A stretch of 45,053 nt of DNA from Bacteroidales bacterium (lineage in GTDB: Bacteria; Bacteroidota; Bacteroidia; Bacteroidales; F082): contig JAFZXP010000058.1 in NCBI GenBank assembly GCA_017616735.1, forward strand, positions 1 to 45,053. The letters are read 5' to 3'. Both the position numbers and the translations under genes were made by a program. How positions within the stretch are numbered: the stretch's first letter is position 1; every line of letters begins with the position of its first letter. Positions 4,442-41,723 of this stretch are shown one piece after another. Below the pieces are notes generated by a model that saw only the letters and a program-made list of their open reading frames with translations, was not told where the DNA came from and searched no databases.

Positions 4442-4500
4442 TAATAAAGTTAAAAGTTGACAGTTGAAAGTTGACAGTTATATAGTATTGAAGTTTTGAA

Positions 4501-4581
4501 GACGGAAAACTATGCGAAGCAATCACGAATGTGAGACCTCAAGGGCTCACCCCTGAAGTGATGCTTGCATAGTTTGAAGTC
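4501..4581. repeat. 81-base palindromic element, copy 1
   Basis: The ends are imperfect terminal inverted repeats: GACGGAAAACTATGC at the left and GCATAGTTTGAAGTC at the right (common core GAC-n3-AAACTATGC). Inside, AAGCAATCAC pairs with GTGATGCTT and GTGAG pairs with CTCAC, so most of the element folds into one long interrupted hairpin. Copy 2 has the same length and ends but a different interior. Confidence 0.8.
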
Positions 4582-4635
4582 ATCTTGAATAGTTTAGAGT
4601 TTAAAGTTTAGAGTTTAGAGTAGTTGAAAAAGTAG

Positions 4636-4655
4636 AGACGGTCGGTCGACCGTCT
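4636..4655. repeat. short perfect hairpin in the repeat spacer
   Basis: AGACGGTC, a four-base loop, then GACCGTCT. It lies between the two 81-base elements and is not followed by a T-tract, so it reads more like a dispersed palindrome than a terminator. Confidence 0.6.
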
Positions 4656-4705
4656 AAAGTTGAAGAGTTTGATAGTGTATAAGTATTAAGTATTGAAATA
4701 TGAAA

Positions 4706-4786
4706 GACGAAAAACTATGCGAAAAATAGCAGGCATTGCGTTAGCTGAAAAAAATTAGCCTGCGGCTTTTTGCATAGTTTGGAGTC
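4706..4786. repeat. 81-base palindromic element, copy 2
   Basis: The left end GACGAAAAACTATGC and right end GCATAGTTTGGAGTC repeat the ends of copy 1. The interior differs: GCGAAAAATAGCAGGC pairs with GCCTGCGGCTTTTTGC. Length is again exactly 81 bases. Keeping the fold while changing the sequence suggests that structure, not sequence, is maintained. Confidence 0.8.
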
Positions 4787-4883
4787 GATGATAACAGTTA
4801 AAAGTTGAAAGTTTAGAGTGTAGAGTTTAGAGTAGTTGAAAAAGTTGACAGTTGAAAGTTTAGAGTTTTAAAATAGTTATAAT

Positions 4884-6248
4884 ATGGATAAAGTTAAAAA
4901 TTACATCAAAGAAAACGAACAGCGTTTTTTAGACGAGTTGTTCGGATTGATTAGAATTCCTTCAATCAGCTCAGAATCAGCACACAAACCTGATATGATC
5001 AAAGCTGCGGAATATTGGCGAGACAGCATCTTGAAGGCTGGCGCCGACAAAGCCGAAGTAATGCCAACAGAAGGCAACCCGATAGTTTACGGCGAAAAAA
5101 TCATCGACCCTAAGAAGCCAACAGTGTTGGTTTACGGCCACTACGACGTGATGCCAGTCGACCCGATTGAGTTGTGGCACACCGACCCATTTGAGCCAGT
5201 CATCAAAGACGGCAAGATCTGGGCTCGCGGCGCCGACGACGACAAAGGTCAGGCTTTCATGCACGCCAAAGCATTCGAAACAATGATGCAAACCGGCACC
5301 CTCCCCTGCAACGTCAAGTTTATGCTTGAAGGCGAAGAAGAAATCGGTTCAGGCAGCCTCTCAAAGTGGATTGAGCAGTACAAAGACCTTGTAAAAGCCG
5401 ATGTTATCCTGGTTTCCGACACCAGCATGATCAACCACGACACACCTTCAATCACTACAGGTTTGCGTGGCTTGGCATATTGGGAAGTTGAAGTTACAGG
5501 CCCGAACGCCGACCTGCATTCAGGATTGTTCGGAGGCGCTGTAGCCAACCCGTTGAACACCTTGTGCGAGATGGTGGCCGGCGTGATGGATAAAAACAAC
5601 CACATCACCATTCCTCATTTCTATGACGACGTTGTTGAGTCATCAGCAAAAGAACGCGAGATGCTCAACAAGGCACCTTACAACGAGGAAGAATTCAAGA
5701 AATCGTTGGGTGTCAAGGCTTTACGTGGCGAAGAAGGATATACTAAGATTGAACGCACAGGTATCCGTCCGACCTTCGATTTGTGCGGCATCTGGGGCGG
5801 TTACACAGGCGAAGGCTCTAAGACAGTGCTTCCATCGAAAGCATACGCCAAGATTTCATGCCGTTTGGTGCCTAACCAAGACCACGAGAAGATTGGCAAG
5901 CTGTTTAAGGAATATTTCGAGAGCATAGCTCCTGATTATGTGACAGTTAAGGTCACAACATTGCATGGCGGCGAGGCTTACGGATGCCCGATTGAGCTTC
6001 CGGCATATAAAGCTGCTGAGCAAGCATATCTCGACACCTACGGTAAGCTTCCTATCCCAATGCGCAGCGGCGGTTCAATCCCGATCATCGCTCGTTTTGA
6101 GAAGGTGCTGGGAATCAAGTCAATTTTGATGGGATTTGGACTTGGCGAAGACGCTATCCACTCACCTAACGAAAACTACAGATTGGATCACTTCTTCAAA
6201 GGAATTGAGACTATTGTGCAGTTCTACCAGCATTACGCTGGGAAATAG
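4884..6248 (+). CDS. M20 family dipeptidase / metallopeptidase
   Basis: A 454-residue di-zinc hydrolase of the M20 family (CNDP/PepV-like branch). Visible catalytic elements are YGHYDVMPVDP (H86, D88), RGADDDKGQ (bridging Asp about D119), EGEEEIGS (general base and metal Glu, residues 149-153), the metal Asp in VSDTSM, and IHSPNE near the C terminus. The middle third, starting at GLRGLAYWEVEV, is the lid/dimerisation domain. There is no signal peptide, so it probably cleaves dipeptides in the cytoplasm. It stands alone, between the repeat spacer and a terminator at 6335. Confidence 0.92.
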   Translation: MDKVKNYIKENEQRFLDELFGLIRIPSISSESAHKPDMIKAAEYWRDSILKAGADKAEVMPTEGNPIVYGEKIIDPKKPTVLVYGHYDVMPVDPIELWHTDPFEPVIKDGKIWARGADDDKGQAFMHAKAFETMMQTGTLPCNVKFMLEGEEEIGSGSLSKWIEQYKDLVKADVILVSDTSMINHDTPSITTGLRGLAYWEVEVTGPNADLHSGLFGGAVANPLNTLCEMVAGVMDKNNHITIPHFYDDVVESSAKEREMLNKAPYNEEEFKKSLGVKALRGEEGYTKIERTGIRPTFDLCGIWGGYTGEGSKTVLPSKAYAKISCRLVPNQDHEKIGKLFKEYFESIAPDYVTVKVTTLHGGEAYGCPIELPAYKAAEQAYLDTYGKLPIPMRSGGSIPIIARFEKVLGIKSILMGFGLGEDAIHSPNENYRLDHFFKGIETIVQFYQHYAGK

Positions 6249-11718: not shown

Positions 11719-13761
11719 CTATTCGTTGATGTTTCTTACCGAAACCCCGTTTTTGAAGTTGTCGAGTCCTTCTTGGAGGAACTGGACGAAGCCGTCTTTG
11801 TCGAGGTTGTAGGCGCGAGGCTCGTGAAGGAGCTCGCCGTTGTGGCCCATGAGGCAGTAATATGGCTGGGCGTTGGTGCCGAATTTGGTGATTTGGAAGT
11901 CGGCATATTTACGGCCGATGGTCTTCTTCATCTTGCCGTCACCTCCCATCACCCATTCTTCTTCAGGGAGACGAGTCTTGTCGTCAACATACAAAGCCAC
12001 AATTATGAAATCTTCGCGCAACATCTTCAGCACTCGAGGATCGCTCCACACATTAGCCTCCATTTCACGGCAATTGACACATCCGTGACCGGTGAAATCG
12101 ACATAAAGCGGCTTGTTCTGAGCCTTTGCGCAAGCCAAAGCCTGCTCATAATCGAAATATCCCTTCAACCCGTGAGGCAGATGGAAGATATCGTCGTAAC
12201 GCGGTGCTTCGCAAAGCTCAGCTGTTGGTTTGGACGACTGCTGTTCGTGTTGAGCGGCCGGCACAGCCTTCACGTTTTGCTGAATATATTCGATAACCTT
12301 GTCGGCATTTTCCTGATTGATACGCTTGAGGTCGAAATCGAGGGTCTGTTGTGGAGGCAGATAGCCCGAGAGAGCCTTCAAAGGTGCGCCCCACATACCC
12401 GGGACCATGTAAACGACAAAGGTAAACACAATGATACTCAATATCAAACGACCGACGCCGATTGATTCGACAGGGTCGTCGTTTTTAAATCTGATCTTGC
12501 CGAGCAGATAGAATCCGAGCATTGCAAAGCAAACAATCCAGATGCCGAGGTAGACCTCACGGTCGAGCAAATGCCAGTGGTATGTCTGGTCGGCAACGCT
12601 TAAGAACTTGAAGCCGAGCGCAACCTCAATGAAACCGAGGATAACCTTCACTGTGTTGAGCCAGCCGCCGCTCTTTGGCAGGTTTTTCAGCATTGACGGG
12701 AACAATGCGAAGAGTGCAAACGGCAATGCAAAGGTGCAGGCGTAGCAGAACATTGTCAGAATCGGAGTCCAGAACTCACCAGATGTCGATTTGATAAGAA
12801 CTGTTCCGACTATAGGTCCTGTGCAGGCAAACGACACCAAAACAAGTGTCAGAGCCATAAAGAACACACCGGCAAGACCTTTCTTTTCGGAATTGGCATC
12901 CGATTTGTTGACCAGGCTGCTCGGGAGCACGATTTCAAAAGCTCCGAAGAACGATGCGGCAAACACCATGAATACCAAGAAGAATATGATATTCGGAATC
13001 CAGTGTGTTGACAACCAGTTGAAAATGTCGCCAGTGACGCTGTCGCCGCCGAAAATCCATGTCACCATGATGATAATAGCGATTGGCAATGTGTAAAGCA
13101 ACACAATGAAAATAAAGTACATAATGGCTTTAAAACGGCCAGCTGCCTTGTTTTCGCTGCCGTGCAGGAAAAACGAAACCGTCATAGGAATCATCGGGAA
13201 CACGCATGGTGTAAGCAATGCCGCCAAGCCCCAAAGAATTGCCTGAAGTATCATTGAAAGAAGGCTGTCACCTTCCTTAGCATCAGTATTTGCTATTGTC
13301 GCGCCATCGAGGTTAATGTCGAATTCCACCTGGGTCGGAGGCAGACACATGCCGTCGTTGCACACCATAAACTCAAGCTCGCCTTTCACGGCAACCGGTT
13401 TTTTGCCAAGCACTTTCACTTTTTGAGTGAATATAGCCTCTTTTTCAAAATAATTCAATTCGATACCGAAAGCGTTGTCAAAATGAACTATCGCCTTGCC
13501 TTCCATAACGTCGCCGATTCTTTCATATCTTGAATCTTCCGCAAACTGGAATGTGGTCGGAATTGGGCCTTCACCGTTGAGATTCTGTGAATAAATATGC
13601 CATCCGGCTTCAATATCAGCCTTGAAGATGACATTGAATTCGTTGTTTCCCAACGACTCTGTCGAGAAGCTCCATTGTACCGGGTCATAAATCTGCGCAA
13701 CCGACGCCAAAGGCATCAAAAATGCGAAAAAAGTTACTAAAATTAAGGATAATTTCTTCAT
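11719..13761 (-). CDS. dsbD: thiol:disulfide interchange protein DsbD
   Basis: DsbD carries electrons from cytoplasmic thioredoxin across the inner membrane to periplasmic thiol proteins. All three redox modules are present: an N-terminal domain after the signal peptide with Cys pair C134/C139 (CNDGMC), a membrane core with C186 (LTPCVFPM) and C313 (FACTGP), and a C-terminal thioredoxin domain with GHGCVNC (C561, C564). The length of 680 residues is somewhat above E. coli DsbD. Two secreted proteins follow within 11 bases each, suggesting one operon. A promoter box lies about 56 bases upstream. Confidence 0.95.
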   Translation of the reverse strand: MKKLSLILVTFFAFLMPLASVAQIYDPVQWSFSTESLGNNEFNVIFKADIEAGWHIYSQNLNGEGPIPTTFQFAEDSRYERIGDVMEGKAIVHFDNAFGIELNYFEKEAIFTQKVKVLGKKPVAVKGELEFMVCNDGMCLPPTQVEFDINLDGATIANTDAKEGDSLLSMILQAILWGLAALLTPCVFPMIPMTVSFFLHGSENKAAGRFKAIMYFIFIVLLYTLPIAIIIMVTWIFGGDSVTGDIFNWLSTHWIPNIIFFLVFMVFAASFFGAFEIVLPSSLVNKSDANSEKKGLAGVFFMALTLVLVSFACTGPIVGTVLIKSTSGEFWTPILTMFCYACTFALPFALFALFPSMLKNLPKSGGWLNTVKVILGFIEVALGFKFLSVADQTYHWHLLDREVYLGIWIVCFAMLGFYLLGKIRFKNDDPVESIGVGRLILSIIVFTFVVYMVPGMWGAPLKALSGYLPPQQTLDFDLKRINQENADKVIEYIQQNVKAVPAAQHEQQSSKPTAELCEAPRYDDIFHLPHGLKGYFDYEQALACAKAQNKPLYVDFTGHGCVNCREMEANVWSDPRVLKMLREDFIIVALYVDDKTRLPEEEWVMGGDGKMKKTIGRKYADFQITKFGTNAQPYYCLMGHNGELLHEPRAYNLDKDGFVQFLQEGLDNFKNGVSVRNINE

Positions 13762-13816: not shown

Positions 13817-13847
13817 CAAATATACGGAAATAATATTAATTATCAAA
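13817..13847 (-). promoter_or_regulatory. promoter of the dsbD operon
   Basis: On the minus strand, TTTG (13847-13844), 19 bases, then TATATTTG (13824-13817). The -33 box overlaps the last codons of tilS. The leader is about 50 bases. Confidence 0.65.
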
Positions 13848-15302
13848 ATTAATTTGATATATGGTTTTGGTTTTTTCGGTAATCTTGAATCTGTCGTCGA
13901 TGCGATAACCCGCTATCCACACAATTTGGTTGTCGGAATCAGTCAGAATCAAAGTGGTTTTCTTTTGGAAAGTGGTGAAATTATTATCGTTGAAGAAATC
14001 CGAGACGAGTTTTGTGCCGCGCATACCAAGAGGACGGAAACGGTCGCCCTGCTGCCAGAATCGGGTTTGCAAAGGCAATTTCAGCTTATCGTAATCCAGC
14101 TGGGCGATGTTAGAATTATCAGTTACCAGTTGAAAGTTGACAGTTTTTTCAATCTTTTTAAAAGAAATCGCCTTTGTATCAGCTATCATGTTACGCGGAA
14201 AAATATCTATAGTCCTTTTTTCGACTACCAGTTGATAATCATCAGAATAAAATTCCTTACCTGGTTCACTGTCAAGGGCAGCAAAAATTGACTCGCATTG
14301 GGAATAAGAGAAGCCAAAGGTGCGAATCCACTCAAAAAGAAGCTGCTTACCAACACCGTCATTCCGAGTGTAGCGAAGCGGAATCGAGGAATCTCCTGCA
14401 AAATATAACGACTCTGATTGTAGGAGATTTCTCCGCTCCGCTCTCTCTTTGGTCGAGCTCCGGTCGAAATGACGTTTCTTTATTGTATGCAAAACGCCGT
14501 CGACGGTTTCAATTTGCGAGATTTTTTCCTGCAAAAGCTCTCTATACAATTGATTTTCAGCGGATAGATGATTTATCGACTCCAAAATCTTTTCTCTTGC
14601 CTCGGCTTTGATTGAGTCAAAAACAGGCATCAGGTCGTGACGGATTTTATTTCTCAAATAAACTGTATCGTTGTTGGTGCTGTCTTCACGCCAATTGATT
14701 CCATTGTCAACGGCAAACCGCCTGATTTCTTCTCTGGACGCCCATAGCAACGGCCTGATATACATTCCATTGCAAGGTTGCATGGCTTTCAGTCCTTTGA
14801 TGCCGGAACCGCGTAGGAGGTTGATGAAAAACGTTTCGATTTGGTCGTCGGCGTGGTGAGCGAGAGCTAATTTATCAAACAGGAGATTTATTCGCCTTTG
14901 GCGAATGCTTTCGCTTCGCTCAGGTTTCCACTCGCTACGCTCGGTCGAAATGACGTGCTGGTTGGCATTAATCAGATCGTTGAACCAGGCGTAGCGCAGG
15001 TCGCGAGCTGCCATCTCAACGGAAACCTTGTTGTCTGCCACATATTGGTGGGTGTCGAACTGCTTTACGAAAAGCTTCACCCCCACCCTGTCGGCATACT
15101 CCCGCACAAACTGTTCGTCGCCATCCGATTCTGCTCCCCTCAGCCTGAAATTGCAATGGGCGAAAGCTATGTTGTATCCGCAACGCCTCAACAATTCCGC
15201 AAGTACCATGGAGTCGACGCCGCCGCTTAATGCGACAAGTATCCGGTCACCTTCTTTAATAAGGTGATTGTCGGCTATATATTTGCGGAATTGTTCTATC
15301 AT
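13836..15302 (-). CDS. tilS: tRNA(Ile)-lysidine synthetase TilS with repeat-derived insertions
   Basis: TilS adds lysine to C34 of the CAU-anticodon tRNA-Ile so that it reads AUA codons. The PP-loop SGGVDS (residues 26-31), HCNFRLRG and the catalytic-region motif HHADDQIETFF (149-159) are intact, as is the C-terminal block FRPLGMRG. At 488 residues it is longer than usual. Three stretches look foreign: residues about 117-141, 277-315 and 386-395. Each is encoded by DNA that resembles dispersed intergenic repeats, and without them the length (about 414) would be ordinary. The gene abuts the upstream gene with no spacer. The enzyme should still be active, as it is expected to be essential and the frame is kept. 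Confidence 0.93.
   Translation of the reverse strand: MIEQFRKYIADNHLIKEGDRILVALSGGVDSMVLAELLRRCGYNIAFAHCNFRLRGAESDGDEQFVREYADRVGVKLFVKQFDTHQYVADNKVSVEMAARDLRYAWFNDLINANQHVISTERSEWKPERSESIRQRRINLLFDKLALAHHADDQIETFFINLLRGSGIKGLKAMQPCNGMYIRPLLWASREEIRRFAVDNGINWREDSTNNDTVYLRNKIRHDLMPVFDSIKAEAREKILESINHLSAENQLYRELLQEKISQIETVDGVLHTIKKRHFDRSSTKERAERRNLLQSESLYFAGDSSIPLRYTRNDGVGKQLLFEWIRTFGFSYSQCESIFAALDSEPGKEFYSDDYQLVVEKRTIDIFPRNMIADTKAISFKKIEKTVNFQLVTDNSNIAQLDYDKLKLPLQTRFWQQGDRFRPLGMRGTKLVSDFFNDNNFTTFQKKTTLILTDSDNQIVWIAGYRIDDRFKITEKTKTIYQINFDN
14120..14147. repeat. TTTCAACT-type simple repeat inside tilS
   Basis: CAGTTGAAAGTTGACAGTT within tilS is the same word that fills the spacer at 4450-4470, and its reverse complement recurs at 29694-29740. 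It encodes residues about 386-395 (TVNFQLVTD). It may be an old insertion that stayed in frame. Confidence 0.6.
14358..14473. repeat. 116-base palindromic repeat inserted in tilS
   Basis: The element starts GTCATTCCGAG and ends CGGTCGAAATGAC, with GAGGAATCTCCTG and GTAGGAGATTTCTCC near the centre. The two arms are therefore inverted copies of one GTCATTYCGA...GGAGATTT word. This is the kind of dispersed palindrome I know from spaces between genes in Bacteroidota genomes. Here it encodes tilS residues about 277-315 without a stop. Confidence 0.8.
14881..14954. repeat. half-copy of the palindromic repeat inserted in tilS
   Basis: AGGAGATTT at the left and CTCGGTCGAAATGAC at the right match one arm of the element at 14358-14473; the GTCATTCCGAG arm is missing. 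It encodes tilS residues about 117-141, just before the catalytic HHADDQ motif. Confidence 0.72.
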
Positions 15303-28568: not shown

Positions 28569-29639
28569 ATGAAAGATCAACAGAAAGAAAAGGTTATCTG
28601 CGGAATACAGCAGGTAGGCATAGGGGTCGAGGATCTCATGACAGCCTGGCAATGGTACAACAAACATCTCAACATCAGACTTAAAGTTGTCGACGACGAC
28701 GGTGTGGCCGAACGTATGCTCCCTTACACCGGCGGCAAGCCTCAGCCCAGACACGCCATACTGGCGCTGGCCGAGCGCGGCGGCGGCGGATTTGAAATCT
28801 GGCAGCCCAAAGGACGCAAAGTGGTTTATCCAAAGGAAGCTTTGCGTATAGGCGACTATGGCATCAACATCTGCAAGGTGAAATGCCCCGATGTCCAGAA
28901 AGCGTATCAGTATTTCAAAGACAACGACATCAAGATATTGAGCGAAATCAACCTCTCTCCTCTCGGTGTGGAGCATTTCTACATCCAAGATCCGTGGGAT
29001 AACATCTTCGAGATAGAGAAAGACGGTTACATCTTCATGAATGTGGATTTGCTGACAGGCGGATCGAACGGCGTGGTGATAGGCGTTTCGGATATGGACA
29101 AATCTATAGAGTTTTACAGCAAGCTACTCGATTACGATATCGTAGCCTTCGACCAAACCGATGTTTTCGACGATTTGAAATGCCTCAACGGCGGCAGCTG
29201 CAAAATGCGCCGCGTCGAGCTTAAACGCTCAAAGCCGATATTGGGACCTCTGAGCGACATCATGGGCCCGTCACACTTGGAATTGGTGCAGAACTTTGAG
29301 ATTGAAGGCCGCAAGACCCTTGAAGGCCGTTGGTGGGGCGACCCCGGATTCATACATCTCTGCTTCGATATCCGCAACATGGAGAAGGTGCGTGAAGACG
29401 CCAAGGCTTTAGGTCACGATTTTGTGTGCGACAGCGGCGAAAATTTCGACATGGGCAACGCCAATGGACGTTTCACTTATGTGGAAGACCCCGACGGCGC
29501 ACTGATTGAGTTTGTCGAAACATTCAAGATACCGATCTTCAAGAGTTTCGGCGTGAGTCTGAAGAAACGCGACGACTACAAGCCCCTTCCAAAATTCATA
29601 ACCAAAGCCTTCCGGTTCGCTAAAGTAAAGTTTAAATAG
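28569..29639 (+). CDS. double VOC-domain (glyoxalase/dioxygenase fold) protein
   Basis: A 356-residue protein with two VOC domains. The first (about 10-150) begins QQVGIGVEDL and ends YIQDPWDNIFEIE; the second (about 160-318) begins VVIGVSDMDKSIEFY and ends YVEDPDGALIEFVE. Each has a His/Glu set compatible with metal binding (for example H138 and E149 in the first). The basic C-terminal tail has no clear domain. Substrate unknown; co-transcription with the SDR opposite spt suggests lipid metabolism, but that is inference. A strong terminator follows 17 bases later. Confidence 0.8.
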   Translation: MKDQQKEKVICGIQQVGIGVEDLMTAWQWYNKHLNIRLKVVDDDGVAERMLPYTGGKPQPRHAILALAERGGGGFEIWQPKGRKVVYPKEALRIGDYGINICKVKCPDVQKAYQYFKDNDIKILSEINLSPLGVEHFYIQDPWDNIFEIEKDGYIFMNVDLLTGGSNGVVIGVSDMDKSIEFYSKLLDYDIVAFDQTDVFDDLKCLNGGSCKMRRVELKRSKPILGPLSDIMGPSHLELVQNFEIEGRKTLEGRWWGDPGFIHLCFDIRNMEKVREDAKALGHDFVCDSGENFDMGNANGRFTYVEDPDGALIEFVETFKIPIFKSFGVSLKKRDDYKPLPKFITKAFRFAKVKFK

Positions 29640-29656: not shown

Positions 29657-29693
29657 AAGAGAGAGGGACTCACTGCGTGAGTCCCTCTCTCTT
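29657..29693. terminator. 17-base-pair perfect terminator hairpin
   Basis: AAGAGAGAGGGACTCAC, TGC loop, then its exact complement. It lies between the VOC gene (plus) and the ompH gene (minus). The bases GAAGACGGAAAAC just before it repeat the left flank and edge of the 81-base element at 4501. Confidence 0.85.
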
Positions 29694-29740
29694 AACTTTC
29701 AACTTTTAACTTTCAACTTTCAACTATCAACTTTCAACTA
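29694..29740. repeat. TTTCAACT simple-repeat tract
   Basis: About five imperfect copies of AACTTTCAACTTTT/ATCAACT run from the terminator up to the stop codon of the ompH gene. The reverse complement is the AGTTGAAAGTTGA word of the 4442-4883 spacer. Confidence 0.8.
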
Positions 29741-30250
29741 ATTGAGACCGAGTTTTGCTTTGACGTCGGCAGTTACATCGATAGCGTTGTCACCAATTGA
29801 AAGGATGACGGTCTTTTCAAACACGTATGCCAAACCTTTAGCTTTAACAACATCGTCTATAGCTTTCTTAATCTTGTCGAGCATAGGTTTTGAAAGTTCT
29901 TCCTGCTTAGCGGCGAAATCGCTCTCGGCGTTGTTCTGGAAATCCTGGATACGACCCTGAAGGTCAAGTATTTCCTTTTCCTTTGATTGACGGAGAATGT
30001 TTGACATTGTGGCTGAATTAGCCTCGTAGTCTCTGAGTTTGTTCTGATATTCTGTTGCCATGGCCTGAAGCTCAGCCTGAAGCTCGCTGTAGTAAGCCTG
30101 CAAATCCTGCTGAATCTTTGCTCCCTCCGGCATCATGTCGATGATGCTCTGTGAGTCAACATAACCAATTTTCTGTCCCTGTGCGTTTGCGCCGAAGCTG
30201 ATACCGAGCGCCAACACAATCAATGCCAATACTTTTGTTAATCTTTTCAT
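29738..30250 (-). CDS. OmpH/Skp-family periplasmic chaperone (second copy)
   Basis: A 170-residue protein with a signal peptide (residues 1-23, ending ANAQ), a short strand IGYVDSQSIIDMMP, a long coiled-coil pair of helices (about 45-135) and a closing beta segment (AYVFEKTVILSIG). That is the jellyfish-like Skp/OmpH fold, which holds unfolded outer-membrane proteins in the periplasm. It lies 85 bases after its paralogue and has its own promoter box at 30286. Its stop codon sits on the TTTCAACT repeat. Confidence 0.9.
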   Translation of the reverse strand: MKRLTKVLALIVLALGISFGANAQGQKIGYVDSQSIIDMMPEGAKIQQDLQAYYSELQAELQAMATEYQNKLRDYEANSATMSNILRQSKEKEILDLQGRIQDFQNNAESDFAAKQEELSKPMLDKIKKAIDDVVKAKGLAYVFEKTVILSIGDNAIDVTADVKAKLGLN

Positions 30251-40842: not shown

Positions 40843-41688
40843 ATGACTTTAAGCTACATCGTATGGGACGTTAACCCTTTCATCTTCACTTTTCCGGATG
40901 GCTTCCCTTTGCTTGGCGGACGCCCGATAGCCTGGTACGGCCTTTTATGGGCTATGGTATTTGTGGTGGGTTATTACATCATGAGGATGATTTACCGCAA
41001 AGAAGGCATAGGCGAAGAATGGGTCGACAAAATCGTAATGTACATGCTGGTTTTCGTCGTAGTAGGCGCTCGCTTGGGGCACTGCCTGTTTTACGAACCC
41101 GATTATTATCTCTCCAATCCCGTTAAAATACTGTACATTTGGGAAGGCGGCCTGGCCAGCCACGGCGGAGCCATAGGCATATTGCTCGGCCTTTGGATTT
41201 ATTCCAGAAAAATCAAGAAAACAATGCTCTGGCTGCTCGACCGAGTGGTGATAGCGGTATCTATCGGAGGTGCTTTCATCCGCACAGGCAATCTTATGAA
41301 TTCAGAGATTTACGGTAACCCCACCACCCTGCCGTGGGGCTTCAAGTTTGTACGCGACTGGGCTCCCGGCACACCGTTGGAGATGATTCCGGCTTGCCAT
41401 CCCACCCAAATCTACGAAGCTTTGTTCTGCGTGGCGATGTTTATTGTTTTGATGTATCTCTATCGCAAAACCGACATCATCAACCGTCGTCAGGGCTTTT
41501 TCTTCGGGTTGTTCTGCACAGTGATATTTGGCTCAAGAATCCTTATAGAATTCATCAAACAGCCGCAGGTGGAGTTTGAAAACAACATGGTGCTCGACAT
41601 GGGACAATGGCTCTCAATTCCGTTGCTGATAGCCGGCATCTACTACATGATCCGCAGCTACAAAAAAGAAGTGAGAAGCAAAAATTAA
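40843..41688 (+). CDS. lgt: prolipoprotein diacylglyceryl transferase Lgt
   Basis: Lgt transfers diacylglycerol to the lipobox Cys of prolipoproteins, the first step of lipoprotein maturation. The 281-residue inner-membrane protein has about seven membrane segments. GRPIAWYGLL lies near the start, WEGGLASHGGAIG contains the essential His-Gly-Gly, and RTGNLMNSEIYG is the Lgt signature. The last eight residues (KKEVRSKN) are encoded by one arm of a long hairpin. Several lipoprotein substrates are encoded in this window. Confidence 0.95.
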   Translation: MTLSYIVWDVNPFIFTFPDGFPLLGGRPIAWYGLLWAMVFVVGYYIMRMIYRKEGIGEEWVDKIVMYMLVFVVVGARLGHCLFYEPDYYLSNPVKILYIWEGGLASHGGAIGILLGLWIYSRKIKKTMLWLLDRVVIAVSIGGAFIRTGNLMNSEIYGNPTTLPWGFKFVRDWAPGTPLEMIPACHPTQIYEALFCVAMFIVLMYLYRKTDIINRRQGFFFGLFCTVIFGSRILIEFIKQPQVEFENNMVLDMGQWLSIPLLIAGIYYMIRSYKKEVRSKN

Positions 41689-41707
41689 CTTTTTGCTTCT
41701 CACTTCT
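41667..41707. terminator. 18-base-pair hairpin overlapping the end of lgt
   Basis: AGAAGTGAGAAGCAAAAA, a five-base loop holding the TAA stop, then the exact complement. The 3' arm runs on into related TACTTCTTGCTTCT words. It separates lgt from the convergent DUF2723 gene and probably ends transcription, though no clean T-tract follows the stem. Confidence 0.65.
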
Positions 41708-41723
41708 TACTTCTTGCTTCTAA

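Follow-up and report, generated by a model that had tools for sequence, protein, structure and literature searches.

The window analysed here, a stretch of 45,053 nucleotides, carries on its minus strand a tilS gene (13836..15302) that encodes a tRNA(Ile)-lysidine synthetase of 488 residues and is the host of three captured repeats; dsbD lies downstream on the same strand (11719..13761) and serves below as a control gene. The identity of TilS is given by its open reading frame together with profile and structural matches: TIGR02432 scores 167.9 bits against a cutoff of 93.6, the ATP_bind_3 and TilS_C domains are also matched, the best six Foldseek matches of the structure model are all TilS/MesJ chains (3a2k, 1wy5, 2e21, 2e89, 1ni5), and the PP-loop residues of the SGG-DS motif (S26, G27, G28, D30 and S31) are invariant among 27 sequences.

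Insert B (14357..14474, minus strand; residues 277-316), recognised from the sequence, from family copies and from alignments, is a 118-nt head-to-head dimer of CGTC-tagged palindromic units. The original prediction had described an inverted-repeat palindrome at 14358-14473 that adds a basic, Arg/Ser-rich stretch to TilS at residues ~277-315, and this held: a nested palindrome, GTCATTCCGAG...CGGTCGAAATGAC, lies exactly there, is read through in the tilS frame without a stop, and yields a peptide of that composition, while one further base at each end (CG...CG) extends it to the full 14357-14474. As judged from the open frame, insert B is predicted to be read as part of the TilS protein. Unit alignment places the first unit in sense order, CGTCATTTCGAC...GGAGAAATCTCC, at 14422..14474 and the second, in reverse orientation and ending ...GGAATGACG, at 14357..14397, with a fast-changing spacer between them at 14398..14421 (all on the minus strand). 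In the predicted fold the ends of the insert pair over 11 bp, and the fold of 14350-14480 beats 199 of 200 shuffles (z -3.3).

Two further repeat pieces that had been suspected in the same gene are both real. Insert A (14881..14955, minus strand; residues ~116-141), delimited by its sequence and by the alignment of relatives, is a single related palindromic unit with an extra nested hairpin (ATTCGCCAAAGGCGAAT), and insert C (14118..14153, minus strand; residues ~384-395) is a tandem piece with a CAACTTT-like repeat of about seven bases, assigned to family D1 at 72% identity to the reference copy. Copies of insert C also stand in the window at 4452-4487 and 4840-4875, in a run of such tandem repeats at 4446..4875 (unstranded; D1, D2, D5 and I2-I6) just upstream of the open reading frame at 4884, and a repeat search of the window found a second, likewise unstranded array of the same type at 29689..29739, between the frames at 29738-30250 and 28569-29639. 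In several relatives site C holds tandem-like or palindromic sequence.

A second hairpin nested before AATCTCC (for example CCTGAGCGAAGCGAAAGC..TTCGCC..GGCGAA in L013) is seen in the units of L009, L010, L013 and L030 as well as at window positions 14881-14955; since some units hold such a hairpin, palindromes within palindromes form a subfamily. Elsewhere in the window, a 29-nt imperfect inverted repeat with a 5-nt loop (41656-41718) stands at the end of one open reading frame and before the next, and is possibly a terminator or another repeat family.

The best AlphaFold model of TilS (built with 27 sequences) has a mean pLDDT of 75.7 and a pTM of 0.49, and only two stretches of at least three residues fall below a pLDDT of 50, residues 114-139 and 283-315, which correspond to inserts A and B, and a pLDDT of 50-70 is given to several other blocks. 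Insert B had been expected to be modelled as a loop, and a low-confidence stretch is what the model gives. The edges of the insert are less simple than had been supposed, in that about seven native residues are missing where insert B stands (SDFEGNL in G025). No target-site duplication was recognised by eye at TilS, PolA or DegT, where the flanks have diverged. With no duplication seen and native residues missing at the sites, simple transposition is unproven.

A dispersed family of palindromic units

The genome of the window (G000) is a MAG of 2.08 Mb in 78 contigs, listed as 80.5% complete, whose closest records are uncultured Bacteroidales MAGs (UBA1173, Bact_22 and UBA4243; horse, yak, sheep and buffalo gut bins). 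As anticipated, it holds many other copies of insert B: at least 82 blastn rows at E<=10 and at least 35 at E<0.001, with 40 of 65 first-look candidates scored and some rows being one place on both strands. The surroundings of 40 distinct places were examined (25 + 15; five of the first 30 loci were the same places on the other strand). At six of them the copy is in frame with Pfam domains or an orthologous protein on both sides, the hosts being TilS, DNA polymerase I (PolA), a DegT aminotransferase, an N6_Mtase/TaqI_C protein, PrmC and a U32 peptidase, and four more copies (L017, L022, L220, L221) are likely in frame. At 30 of the 40, counted without place-by-place annotation, the copy was not seen within a conserved spanning frame. 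The high repeat count in one essential gene, to which attention had been drawn, is thus only part of the picture: tilS is dense in repeats and not alone in carrying them. A palindrome end forms the C-terminus of a family 9 glycosyltransferase (L216) and an EPSP synthase (L222), both among the places examined in G000, and of an IPP transferase (L249).

The repeat unit is read in all three forward frames. The frames in use are RHFD in insert B of TilS, in DegT and in N6_Mtase, VIST in insert A of TilS, and SFRP in PrmC and L017. Selection for open frames within the repeat was considered and is unsupported, since 122 of 174 unit frames are open and 128.5 would be expected from shuffles.

A pattern that fixed both ends of the unit, GTC included, found 29 units, of which 21 were aligned. 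The first base, left free, is C in 25 of the 29 (giving CGTC), T in three and A in one, and the CGTC tag is unpaired in the alignment fold. All 21 aligned sequences form the five invariant pairs, which the pattern had in part fixed, as well as the four that covary; the stem begins with A-T/T-A in 21 of 21, but these bases too were fixed by the pattern, and the TilS copy shows both. The consensus has nine pairs broken by unpaired bases and a loop of three, where CGTC REPs are defined by a stem of 8-9 bp and a loop of 4-5 nt. Its tail is CT in 20 units and CC in one, under a pattern that allowed only these and ended there, and so differs from the CCA tail of such REPs; a related GTCATTGCGAG element of G008 does show CCA. 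From these sequence features the unit would be classed as a REP-like hairpin with a CGTC tag, which insert B contains as a head-to-head pair.

Among 40 genomes of the genus, with 21 candidates scored per genome, the insert B family reaches E<=0.001 in nine members (at least 2-29 matches each); a tenth genome, G009, has one such match, and the other 30 have none. A search among plasmids gave no match. Three other patterns were surveyed in the same genomes. The CCTGAGCYTGTCGAAGG pattern occurs in 25 of the 40 with up to 136 copies (its reversed control gave none), and the CGTCATTGCGAG pattern in 30 with up to 135, although several of these genomes hold only one to four and the reversed control reached three. 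The GACAAGGCATGCCTTGTCC pattern is found in five genomes, with six sites in G063 and seven in G011, one of which is in tilS and one in prmC in each genome. Among the patterns tested, these three families are therefore dispersed.

Turnover of repeats in TilS and other linkers

The residues of insert B are absent from all 42 TilS sequences aligned from outside the genus, in which the linker at site A measures 16 residues in 42 of 42, that at site B 26-39 and that at site C 51-77. Inside the genus (42 TilS sequences, leaving out L054 and L090 with their broken frames) the same linkers span 12-45, 17-63 and 50-102 residues. In this comparison 23 of 80 loci gave no open reading frame with the search motif, genus membership of the loci was judged by identity and not by taxonomy, and the alignments were made without 24 same-order genomes. 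That relatives should simply lack the insert holds outside the genus; within it site B is often not empty, other repeat families standing at the same place.

Among close relatives, G011 and G063 share the dimer at site B, G017 and G032 have half units there, and G026, G015 and G005 show a relic of one end. The more distant members G020, G008 and G034 have GTCATTGCGA palindromes, and CCTGAGCCTGTCGAAGG elements occur in G003, G019, G033 and G028, with near-matches in G022 and G024 and the reverse orientation in G021; G023 has a GGCATCCC element, some distant members have short tandem-like repeats, and G025, G001, G014 and G030 retain only a native-looking linker. The families found at this one site are thus GTCATTTCGA, GTCATTGCGA, CTGAGCYTGTCGAAG (in both orientations), GGCATCCC and tandem pieces. 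The first two have a CGTCATT head in common and may be related by sequence. At least one of five motif families is present in 20 of 30 tilS reading frames of the genus, a count that, like all those across species here, is phylogenetically dependent; a sixth motif tested in these frames gave no match.

Given that all of these genomes are MAGs, and that one of them (G035) has two polA contigs of which one is identical to that of G000, it might be supposed that the insert is an assembly artefact, or a native loop that resembles a repeat by chance. Such an origin is extremely improbable. The insert occurs at the same place in tilS of G063 and G011, whose listed completeness is 99% and 100%, with 87% and 85% identity to that of G000 over ~125 nt, and in 29 of 30 tilS loci of the genus both sides of site B lie within one open frame, the exception being L054. 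These identities also make orthology likelier than conversion or recent re-insertion of the tilS insert, since other full-length copies among those listed reach at most 79% and the unusual first unit is common to G000, G011 and G063.

Two genomes have a tilS frame that is interrupted in the linker of site B, in G029 (L054, ~1904-1970) and at L090 (~2228-2301), where tandem-like GCATTCCTC repeats stand at the break, the conserved stretch that should follow is gone and the rest of TilS lies in another frame. Dead genes, deletions through repeats and faulty assembly are all candidate explanations; the breakage suggests that capture at site B is not always harmless.

Similar replacement is seen in other hosts, although PolA, PrmC and DegT were picked for having a copy in G000 and their rates are biased upwards. 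In the linker of PrmC between PRPET and the SAM-binding motif (compared without L162), G000, G032 and G017 have a GTCATTTCGA unit, G026, G063 and G011 a GACAAGGCATGCC element, G005 and G015 apparent tandem pieces as judged from the peptide, and the others a short native linker; motif families are present in seven of 30 PrmC reading frames. In the PolA linker (rows L232 and L233 dropped from this comparison, and one of 12 loci from the motif count) G000, G063, G011 and G017 have a repeat pair and G026 a different palindrome; G015 has none, and in G032 the repeat seems to be almost wholly deleted, with one end remaining. For DegT six of 12 loci were recovered: the loop is occupied by the dimer in G000, by one unit in G026 and by a tandem piece in G017, and it has native residues in G004, G033 and G031. 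Since related species differ in the repeats found at a given linker of TilS, PrmC, PolA or DegT, captures happened several times, with later ones replacing or shrinking earlier ones. The GACAAGGCATGCC element of G026 also lies in frame inside the Pfam domains of an ACPS-family transferase and a PMT_2 glycosyltransferase.

Several observations on these genes stand apart from the turnover itself. The two polA contigs of G035, L224 (C151) and C75, one identical to G000 over 905 residues and the other at 89%, look like contamination or strain mixture in the MAG. The polA genes of G063 and G011 (L226, L227) have a low-divergence patch of ~100 codons around the insert, flanking codons included, and this patch suggests that an in-gene repeat can travel with homologous exchange between species. 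The DegT aminotransferase at L241 (G028:C1:67099-68082) is 84% identical to that of G000 while DsbD of the same genome is only 61% identical, and was likely acquired by horizontal transfer. The DsbD frames of G006 and G025 exceed that of G000 by ~115 residues and give overlapping match pieces at residues ~398-494, possibly a partial duplication.

Against the controls used (flanks, dsbD and other TilS), tilS is a hot spot in the genus. Clusters of the five motifs number 26 per 39.9 kb (0.65/kb) inside tilS and 4 per 67.7 kb (0.06/kb) in its flanks, a density ~11 times higher, with p = 3e-8 that is not to be taken literally since the species are related. The adjoining dsbD has no motif family in the 27 reading frames recovered from 30 loci (three loci were not recovered), and 43 TilS frames from L081-L146, one of them from a genus member, hold one cluster. 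This excess over the flanks, the absence from dsbD and the arrival of several families at one site are what a target preference of the mobilising machinery, beyond mere tolerance, would produce. We consider such a preference unlikely: the same turnover is seen in three further genes that have no obvious link to one another, at places that would tolerate added residues, dsbD is the sole control gene, and the counts treat related species as independent. The hot spot is most simply explained by the three soft linkers that tilS has on offer.

Tolerance of this kind may also account for the distribution as a whole. Repeats would arrive throughout the genome by a trans-acting activity; selection would remove disruptive copies and keep mainly those that are intergenic, lie at the end of a gene or stand in frame within a soft linker, and a linker once filled could later be remodelled by deletion or by a new arrival. 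In TilS the insert would be tolerated because the linker is disordered in the model and the open frame is kept. It is very probable that a dispersed, non-autonomous palindromic repeat entered tilS in the ancestor of about nine related species, where it is read as protein and tolerated in a linker modelled as disordered.

Possible constraint on the insert as protein or nucleic acid

Among G000, G011 and G063 the core of TilS has a dN/dS of 0.06-0.07 (dS 1.2-1.9), and the protein outside the insert is under purifying selection. Over the 38 codons of insert B dN/dS is 0.94-1.05, with both rates near 0.2, which argues that the insert is without selection as protein. It might nonetheless be expected that a basic, Arg-rich segment in a tRNA-modifying enzyme, kept in frame in three species, had been recruited for a function specific to TilS, for example tRNA binding. 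This is quite improbable given that dN/dS, given that relatives hold other peptides or almost none at the site, and given that copies in other genes use other frames.

Both rates being near 0.2, the insert has changed ~five to ten times less than the synonymous sites of its host. In the three pairwise comparisons of these species its units differ at 8, 8 and 9 of 94 nt and its spacer at 10, 8 and 12 of 24, while third codon positions of the core differ at 41-45%; the changes in the units have no codon-position bias, and the windows that flank the insert have diverged at 6-11 of 20 third positions. At this one locus in three species, the pattern suggests that the units of insert B are constrained as nucleic acid.

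A stronger reading of these data is that captured units are kept for a role as nucleic acid, with a hairpin acting at the level of the DNA or of the tilS transcript, and are not merely tolerated. The slow change of the units relative to the spacer and to core third positions, without codon-position bias, agrees with it, and compensatory changes are found in the dispersed units (covariation 0.357 against 0.128 in shuffles, with none of 500 as high), though this covariation comes from dispersed copies and speaks for the family and not for tilS. The counts are small and come from one locus in three species, single units fold no better than shuffles (four cases, z -1.58 to +1.09), and other species have replaced the insert or deleted it to a relic. 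In addition, conversion from similar copies may slow the apparent change, partial copies being present at 91% over 45 nt in G000 and at 85% over ~86 nt in G035. We therefore regard a kept hairpin as possible and lean somewhat against it. The near-identity of the PolA insert between G063 and G011 (one difference in 41 codons) was considered as a further sign of constraint and dropped, as it lies in the low-divergence patch that includes the flanks.

More tentative still is the combined proposal that linkers in the genus are continually overwritten by an active palindrome family whose captured units are selected as nucleic acid even while translated, which we think rather doubtful. If it were true, the coding sequence of tilS would include a hairpin that functions as DNA or RNA. 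For the capture of a tolerated repeat, the reading we prefer, the genus provides a natural series of empty, filled, half-deleted, replaced and broken linkers in which to follow how mobile DNA makes new protein segments, and the same series addresses whether an in-gene repeat can be kept as nucleic acid while its peptide drifts.

Comparison with known repeat systems

GTAG REPs are hairpin repeats thought to be moved in trans by RAYT transposases. The units described here are likewise hairpin repeats, but their tag is CGTC, and Y1_Tnp is absent from seven of the nine carrier genomes (G000 and six of the other eight), while matching in 28 of the 40 genomes of the genus. Eight Y1_Tnp loci, comprising the six best matches (in non-carrier genomes) and those of the carriers G011 and G026, have no palindromes of the carrier families within ~1.5 kb, although the six non-carrier loci tell little on this point; one GGCATCCC match lies in L064. 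A RAYT as the current mobiliser is accordingly disfavoured, and no mobilising enzyme tied to the repeats was found in a search confined to Y1_Tnp.

The unit type itself resembles the CGTC-tagged REPs, which in the sections of Di Nocera et al. (2013; PMC3733652) drawn on here form head-to-head pairs, have intragenic members and have no dedicated transposase. Those sections list Bacteroidetes among the phyla with CGTC repeats, give DNA polymerase I and tRNA pseudouridine synthases as examples of intragenic hosts, and suggest that linkers or loops receive the insertions. The CGTC tag, the head-to-head pairs, the intragenic copies and the lack of any dedicated transposase found are alike in the two systems as there described; they differ in the tail (CT/CC here, a CCA consensus there), in the interrupted stem of the present units and in their length, mostly 36-50 nt. 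In the section that treats gene sites, different REPs at about the same site are given only for recB of two Xanthomonas species (PMC3733652).

ERIC/RU of Enterobacteria and NEMIS of Neisseria, as outlined in PMC2229807, are also small palindromic repeats with some in-frame gene fusions, but target-site duplications are listed for them (Table 1 of PMC2229807) and none were seen here. The Rickettsia palindromic elements (RPE; Ogata et al. 2000, 2002), in the accounts given in parts of PMC2229807 and PMC10969869, are palindromes of 105-150 bp that lie in frame in unrelated conserved genes and also between genes. Like these, the present repeat is a palindrome (118 nt) with terminal inverted repeats, in frame in unrelated conserved genes, also intergenic, and apparently tolerated. 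It differs from RPE as so described in its phylum, in the use of all three forward frames where RPE have one conserved peptide, and in that several families occupy the same linker among related species. The parallel with Rickettsia that had been drawn at the outset would therefore hold for the way of working and not for membership, the two having been compared by description.

In-frame palindromes are best known from Rickettsia, and the same is seen here in housekeeping genes of gut Bacteroidales. Among the top results of a search of the open-licence literature (subscription papers lay outside it), none dealt with palindromes read in frame in Bacteroidales or TilS. As far as that literature goes, palindromes inside genes are a known phenomenon; what is new is their turnover across a genus, where the same linkers have been entered by several repeat families in the 40 genomes sampled.
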